Shown piece after piece: positions 51,138-51,716 of a DNA stretch of 64,000 nucleotides. This stretch comes from Symbiodinium natans. Taxonomy: Eukaryota > Sar > Dinophyceae > Suessiales > Symbiodiniaceae. Where the stretch lies: assembly GCA_905221605.1 (NCBI GenBank), contig CAJNDS010000105.1:107001-171000 (forward strand), written 5' to 3'. The notes beneath the pieces were generated by a model. That model was not told where the DNA came from. It ran no database searches and was given only the letters and a program-made list of their open reading frames with translations. The stretch's first letter is position 1. Each line of letters opens with the position of its first letter. A program made the translations under genes and the position numbers.

Positions 51138-51162
51138 GCGGCTTGGGCGCGAAGTTGAGGTG

Positions 51163-51250
51163 TAGGGTTTAGGGTTTAGGGTTTAGGGTTTAGGGTTTAG
51201 GGTTTAAGGCTTAGGGCTTAGGGTTTAGGGTTTAGGGTTTAGGGTTTGGG
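51163..51250 (+). repeat. TTTAGGG array on the donor side of intron 51138-51716
   Basis: Eleven to twelve units with a TTAAGGC/CTTAGGG pair in the middle. Confidence 0.93.
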
Positions 51251-51639
51251 GTGCCAAATTTCACAGAAATGGATTAATAGTGTAAAAGAATTGTTCAAAT
51301 GCCTCAATTAATTGCCTCCAAAACTACAAAAAGACATACCCAATAATGTTTTAAACTTGAAAACCCATCTACAATTAGTTTACCTAATTTCAAAACAAAC
51401 CCATCCAATAATTAAACTACAATACAACTATATAGTACTTCATGCAAAAAAAGAGAGCAATGATTGGAATTCACAATAGCAATGCTAGGAATACTCGTCA
51501 TAACAGTCATGCTAGAAAGAATAGCAACAGTAGTAATCATGGCCATACGAGTAGTCATGATGAACCTAAAGTAATCACAGCGAAAACGCAAGCCTCAACC
51601 CGAACCCTAAACTCCTAAACCCTTAAACCCTAAGCTCAA

Positions 51640-51704
51640 GCCCTAAACCCTAAACCCTAAACCCTAAACCCTAAACCCTAAACCCTAAACCCTAAACCCT
51701 AAAA
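51640..51704 (-). repeat. CCCTAAA array on the acceptor side of intron 51138-51716
   Basis: Nine units ending 12 nt before the GTTGCAG acceptor. Confidence 0.93.
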
Positions 51705-51716
51705 GAAGTGTTGCAG

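Follow-up and report, generated by a model that had tools for sequence, protein, structure and literature searches.

Telomere-type arrays flank many exons in a fixed orientation in a 64-kb window of the Symbiodinium natans genome

Introduction

Why telomere-type repeats lie against exons inside a chromosome, and why their orientation differs between the two sides of an exon, is the question raised by a 64 000-nt stretch of the Symbiodinium natans genome (contig CAJNDS010000105.1, positions 107 001–171 000; hereafter the window). Dinoflagellate genes are very intron-rich and carry unusual donors, and dinoflagellate introns follow an AG|G acceptor rule. A preliminary description of the window had drawn attention to TTTAGGG arrays after donors and CCCTAAA arrays before acceptors. 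Here, these arrays (F and R, respectively, throughout) are related to splice sites placed by protein continuity and reading-frame joins, and the explanations that may account for their arrangement are weighed.

Results

Telomere-type arrays in the window

In the whole window, 216 telomere-type runs are exact over at least 14 nt (107 F and 109 R), and these merge into 156 arrays (77 F and 79 R). With one mismatch allowed per 7-mer, telomere-like DNA makes up ∼35% of the window (0.180 + 0.171). Perfect runs reach 133 nt (47733–47865), and such uninterrupted units inside a chromosome are as in interstitial telomeric sequences. R-then-F neighbours spaced 60–200 nt apart occur 34 times, compared with a mean of 17.8 (sd 3.2, maximum 30) in 10 000 shuffles of orientation, and 30 of the 46 R-to-F gaps measure 82–142 nt, which is the size of an exon; the F-to-R gaps are broad. 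Among other repeats of the window, a long interrupted CAC-type trinucleotide repeat at 50092–50490 leaves several reading frames open, on both strands. Rfam and tRNA searches of the window gave no matches, and relatives of the window were absent from the viral and genome contig collections searched.

Splice sites placed in two genes

Splice sites were placed by protein continuity or reading-frame joins in a PPR gene and in a gene for a USP4/11/15-type deubiquitinase (USP gene), both on the + strand. The exon-joined PPR peptide scores 38.9 bits against PPR_2 (cut-off 30), and the exon-joined USP peptide scores 42.6 bits against UCH (cut-off 23.9) and aligns to USP4 and USP11. Pfam searches with exon chains assembled by eye over 0.8–11.4, 27–41 and 45–49 kb gave no match above the cut-off, but a weak match to DUSP (12.9 bits) had pointed to the USP gene. 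The resulting 17 donors and 17 acceptors comprise both ends of ten complete introns (Table 1) together with one-ended sites; the boundaries of E40, E51b, E54d, E55b, E58 and U3 are less exact, and several exons were first noticed through their flanking arrays. Nine of the ten introns are GC-AG and one is GT-AG, and all ten acceptors read AG|G, counts in which the AG|G and GC preferences themselves helped to choose the boundaries of P5, U1 and U3 (the P5 donor was picked from several by frame and the GC/AG|G rule). The ten introns are of the dinoflagellate spliceosomal type, which is recognized by many GC/GA donors besides GT and by AG acceptors; GC/GA-AG introns account for 25–74% in Symbiodiniaceae (PMC11453091). 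Besides intron type, the size of the exons, the TTTAGGG repeat and the style of the PPR protein point to a dinoflagellate genome. A relict of DinoSL, sought in the window as a pattern with up to 3 mismatches, has 0 matches, and 64 kb need not contain one. A mis-assembly is made less likely by the protein reading on in frame from one side of the introns to the other.

Table 1. Introns, exon, array and repeat copies placed in the window, in order of position
Feature	Position	Strand	Arrays	Basis or remark
Intron U1, GC-AG	27452..27947	+	F 27488-27511 at donor; F 27830-27879 before acceptor	PPLPRK|VIEIDGRVELEMYPL aligns to USP11 (PDB 4mem); alternative end 27938
USP Cys-box exon (NTCYMNASIQ)	36157..36189	+	F 36039-36132, ends 24 nt ahead of acceptor	Exception
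Intron U2, GT-AG	38262..39458	+	F 38290-38352 at donor; none within 100 nt of acceptor	Continuity GKLAIAFADLF..TQG|SRVVAPRDFKRHL
Intron U3, GC-AG	39519..40003	+	None at donor; R 39892-39960 at acceptor	Frame-based boundary, least certain of the ten
Intron U4, GC-AG	40051..40821	+	None at donor; R 40617-40811 at acceptor	Continuity KPQFAGWKQQ|DAQEFLSMFLAGL
Intron P1, GC-AG	51138..51716	+	F 51163-51247; R 51641-51703	Continuity SAAISAMEA|SGQWAHALALL
Intron P2, GC-AG	55394..55848	+	F 55422-55442; R 55789-55828	Continuity PTAIT|FSAVAAALRGTWRRAVAL
Intron P3, GC-AG	57871..58529	+	F 57898-57937 at donor; F 58445-58482 before acceptor	Exception; continuity LIAGLDGE|AWEVALALLADM
Intron P4, GC-AG	61758..62303	+	Donor free of arrays within 100 nt; R 62182-62271 at acceptor	Continuity FSSAVSACGK|AELWEGALTLFESA
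Left copy of 27-nt exact direct repeat	62152..62178	+	Beside R 62182-62271	
Right copy of 27-nt repeat	62285..62311	+		Spans P4 acceptor
Intron P5, GC-AG	62380..62756	+	No 14-nt array at donor; R 62641-62739 at acceptor	Frame and PPR continuity
Intron P6, GC-AG	62802..63556	+	R 62838-62876 after donor; R 63460-63534 before acceptor	Exception; continuity TFSAAISAMEK|(S)RRWSEALALL
F array	63657..63730	+	F	33 nt past PPR donor; an imperfect copy of a ∼20-nt stretch on either side

The preliminary description had given P1 and P2 as F..R introns, and their coordinates match to the base as GC-AG introns by PPR continuity. It had also listed three exceptions, of which P3 (F..F) and P6 (R..R) agree in coordinates and are true exceptions; the third is likewise an F..F exception, although its end is more likely at 27947 than at 27938, as indicated by a gap-free peptide alignment to USP11 (RKVIE) in which the query assumed that join. 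At 26174–26566 the arrays lie as described, while the intron itself was unconfirmed by homology. Among the intervals that had been offered as less certain, those at 5705, 8564, 10213, 34667 and 57816 show R before and F after, and that at 42532 shows F after only, an exact R run of at least 14 nt being absent between 40811 and 45498. An AT-richer segment at 56195–57134, apparently within an intron of the PPR gene, contains two overlapping open frames; the frame at 56409–57134 has three relatives (51–60% identity) on ENA contigs of 271 and 312 kb, has no Pfam match and is perhaps a mobile-element gene.

Array orientation at donors and acceptors

Within 100 nt of the 17 donors, F arrays are found at eight, an R array at one and no array at eight, and within 100 nt of the 17 acceptors R arrays are found at 12, F arrays at three and no array at two (Fisher p = 0.002 for donor versus acceptor orientation), in agreement with the sense-strand polarity of the preliminary description. 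F arrays are present within 45 nt after 8/17 donors compared with 5.8% of random window positions, and R arrays within 45 nt before 12/17 acceptors compared with 6.0%, the control in both cases being any window position rather than intron positions. Coverage at +20 to +60 of the donors is 0.34 for F and 0.04 for R, and at −20 to −60 of the acceptors it is 0.62 for R and 0.07 for F, whereas the window as a whole averages 0.069 (F) and 0.063 (R). The R arrays lie 7–43 nt before the AG and the F arrays 5–44 nt after the donor (median 28 nt), and the polarity weakens past ∼150–200 nt from splice sites. Where introns could be placed, the arrays are intronic, in line with the preliminary description, and adjoin splice sites. 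Telomere-type arrays flank many exons in a fixed orientation, F after and R before, and on both sides the G-rich strand runs outward from the exon.

The same polarity was examined in an array-blind scan that used codon content only and was trained on 350 codons of the placed PPR and USP peptides. The + strand scan gave 26 candidates with scores of at least 10, and removal of the low-complexity stretches at 59702–59868 and 59877–59937 left 24. Within 60 nt of these 24 candidates, 13 of which overlap the training peptides, the upstream side carries R in 16, F in 0 and no array in eight, and the downstream side carries F in nine, R in three and no array in 12 (Fisher p = 3e-5); the 11 candidates outside the training peptides (R 5 and F 0 upstream, F 3 and R 2 downstream) are not significant alone (p = 0.17). 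The − strand scan gave eight candidates with scores of at least 10, five of which overlap + strand candidates. Read in their own sense, they carry R in five, F in one and no array in two upstream, and F in three, R in one and no array in four downstream, as expected of a symmetric pattern. A G-rich GCGGAGGG-type repeat of ∼300 nt at 59690–59990, with a GAE-rich open frame, acted as a false exon in the codon scan.

This symmetry bears on a further claim, that array orientation is linked to the direction of transcription, and here the preliminary description has to be corrected. The arrangement exon-F...R-exon is identical on both strands; F...R is its own reverse complement, and therefore sense and antisense cannot be read from the arrangement. 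The neighbour counts of 46 RF and 45 FR are the same after reverse complementation of the window, and all exons placed by homology lie on the + strand. The accompanying argument, that random telomere insertion is insufficient as an explanation, does hold, as random orientation without selection would not yield strong polarity at splice sites.

Possible splice signals in the arrays

Our best explanation, which we put forward tentatively, is that every array fits the splice site beside it, with R being a branch-point-like C-rich tract and F forming a G-run tract. Telomere-type arrays would be an abundant intron-filling repeat, with telomerase insertion or slippage as the likely source, and the survivors next to exons would be those whose sense strand fits the neighbouring splice site. 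A (CCCTAAA)n array before an acceptor would supply many branch-point-like CTAAA(C) units in an AG-free, C-rich stretch, and a (TTTAGGG)n array after a donor would supply G-runs; F may be kept from acceptors because each unit, TTTAG|GG, mimics an AG|G acceptor. Each array would aid or disturb its own splice site, and pairing between the arrays at the two ends of an intron would not be required. In terms of composition, the R unit has no G, hence no AG, GT or GC, and contains one CTAAA, and the F unit contains one AGG. Branch-point and intronic-enhancer zones fit the distances at which the R and F arrays lie. Position, polarity and enrichment beside splice sites, together with the lack of coupling between intron ends, are features of the arrays as they stand; we infer, beyond this, a function in splicing and maintenance by selection.

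The motif CT[AG]A[AC] is found 5–26 nt before the AG at 10/17 acceptors compared with 103/1371 control AG|G sites, and among the acceptors that lack R, three of five have CTGAA or CTGAC (p = 0.004), a motif picked after the sequences had been inspected. Relative to AG|G controls with R upstream, the acceptors show no excess of the branch-like motif (CTNA[AC], 12/17 versus 34/73, p = 0.11; CT[AG]A[AC], p = 0.17). Three acceptors tolerate F upstream, which counts against the splice-signal explanation; at two acceptors with F upstream (36156 and 58529), all AGGs of the last 34 nt lie upstream of the CT[AG]A[AC] motif, as a scanning rule expects. AGG occurs four times at −32 to −3 of the 17 acceptors, where ∼15.8 are expected. 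An independent avoidance of AGG before acceptors was considered and rejected, as the R arrays explain the deficit (1 versus 11.1 at the 12 acceptors with R, 3 versus 4.6 at the five without). After donors, AGG is found 54 times versus 17.3 at the eight with F and 12 times versus 19.5 at the other nine, where it is not raised. The scarcity of R at donors is explained only if F is favoured there, since R has no obvious donor-harming signal. An extended form of this explanation appears unlikely. In it, this lineage would have recruited the telomere repeat as a two-sided code for splicing, with the C-strand, transcribed ahead of acceptors, as a multi-copy branch-point/3′ splice signal and the G-strand after donors as a 5′ intronic enhancer, and new exon boundaries could form wherever telomerase or slippage drops an array.

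Possible telomerase healing of breaks at exons

A strong rival, though in our judgement a doubtful one, is that exon-bearing 3′ ends of double-strand breaks in or near exons were given TTTAGGG and then rejoined, a break inside an exon yielding a new intron. The G-strand would run outward from exons because telomerase extends the exon-bearing broken ends, and the observed polarity is indeed that of a healed chromosome end. The best case is the R array at 62182–62271, with an exact 27-nt repeat copy on either side, across an acceptor; shorter flanking copies surround the arrays at 63657–63730, 36764–36862 and 31615–31681. In mammals, breaks are described at which telomeric repeats have been inserted, in some cases with duplication of the target site (PMC2246262). 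The flanks of F..R pairs, however, are without duplication: scores of at least 18 were reached by 0/44 pairs with 40-nt flanks (0.33 expected) and by 2/44 with 60-nt flanks (1.7 expected). For single arrays, five duplications score at least 20 compared with 0.43 in mismatched pairs, but 4/85 is hardly more than the ∼2 expected from pseudo-insertions in the same window (2.3% rate). Moreover, a donor F and an acceptor R do not go together, and healing alone leaves unexplained why breaks fall 5–44 nt from splice sites.

A target-site duplication at 57871–58529 had seemed convincing by eye, but the 44 F..R pairs showed none, and splice-centred duplication scores of four introns (14, 20, 23 and 14) are not outstanding beside mismatched scores of 17–33. 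At 47010–47110, CATCTCACAAAAAA occurs three times around short R-like arrays, perhaps through local duplication of an array with its flank.

Possible pairing of arrays across introns

The preliminary description proposed, in a model that we consider improbable, base pairing of (UUUAGGG)n to (CCCUAAA)n within the pre-mRNA, which would loop out the intron and bring the splice sites together. P1 folds with −212 kcal/mol (z = −12.6 versus 100 shuffles) with its arrays paired, P2 also folds better than its shuffles (z = −4.55), and in context the F array of P1 forms 45.8 pairs with the far R and 0.0 with the upstream R, as the model predicts, and hairpins joining exon boundaries have been proposed for the introners of Amoebophrya (PMC7789003). 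Against it, pairing across exons is about as strong as pairing across introns. Thirty-seven R-to-F spacers of 80–220 nt (not all of them proven exons) were taken for in-context folding, and the 31 with a further R within 1300 nt were folded, giving a mean of 24.8 pairs across the exon or spacer versus 22.4 across the following interval. Seventeen of these units are clearly exon-crossing, 13 are intron-crossing and one has 0.0 for both (the script counted 18/31 for the exon). The F array of P2 itself pairs across its exon (20.8 versus 0.0), and an exon-crossing pair would arise first during transcription.

Coupling between the two ends of an intron was not observed. Variants are no more often common to the two arms of one intron than to arms taken from different introns (43 pairs, p = 0.48), and there is no covariation. 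F at the donor is combined with R at the acceptor in only 2/10 complete introns (P1 and P2); P3 and U1 are F..F, P6 is R..R, P4, P5, U3 and U4 have R only and U2 has F only. R is present at the acceptor in 2/5 introns with an F donor versus 5/5 without (p = 0.17), that is, with no positive association. Pairing is possible and, in P1, striking, yet it is neither specific nor general, and a role in joining splice sites is mostly not supported.

Comparison with introners and other telomere-type repeats

It is very improbable that these introns were created by a family of introner transposons whose terminal inverted repeats are the arrays. Dinoflagellates do have introners bearing such repeats (PMC9860276, PMC7789003, PMC10666404), but a telomere-masked self-BLAST of this one window (E 1e-5) returned only the minisatellite at 18.8–19.35 kb and the 27-nt repeat, with no intron family, and none of the F..R pairs reaches a duplication score of 18 (0/44, 40-nt flanks). 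The minisatellite (18799–19358) has a 21-bp unit of the GGGCAAGGTCCGAAAATTAGC type, with an inverted block at 18934–19062 between direct blocks, and a C run at 19352–19420 adjoins it.

The introners of Amoebophrya have inverted repeats near both ends (PMC7789003), the introns of Prorocentrum cordatum are enriched in introner elements with ‘simple inverted repeats at both ends’ (PMC10666404), and the introners of S. microadriaticum have 4-bp duplications and terminal inverted repeats (PMC9860276). P1 and P2 resemble the Amoebophrya and P. cordatum elements in having complementary sequences near both ends, whereas the arrays here are of telomere type, common to many introns and mostly one-sided, and no family with similar interiors is found in the window. 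The published rule calls for inverted repeats of 8–20 nt and direct repeats of 3–5 nt no more than 30 nt from either end (PMC10666404); in P1 and P2 the F arrays start only 25 and 28 nt into the intron.

The arrays share with mammalian interstitial telomeric sequences (PMC2246262) their short, intrachromosomal form, and at least one has an exact flanking duplication, but here 156 merged arrays lie in 64 kb, adjacent to exons and with polarity. A TTTAGGG/CTAAACC repeat is also spread through a large part of the Eimeria tenella genome, where it forms bands with CAG repeats, and the passages on this repeat in PMC9131526 describe no exon-related rule. Plant telo boxes are short AAACCCT motifs within genes; PMC3022908 presents them as lying in the 5′ region, and not as arrays at intron ends. 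Among the literature matches listed, which include few subscription papers, none describes telomere arrays with a polarity at the edges of exons.

Implications

It is worth checking whether some of the introns called ‘introners’ by inverted-repeat rules hold telomere arrays. A telomerase-type repeat that marks exon edges in a strand-specific manner would connect the biology of telomeres with the gain of introns and the recognition of splice sites.
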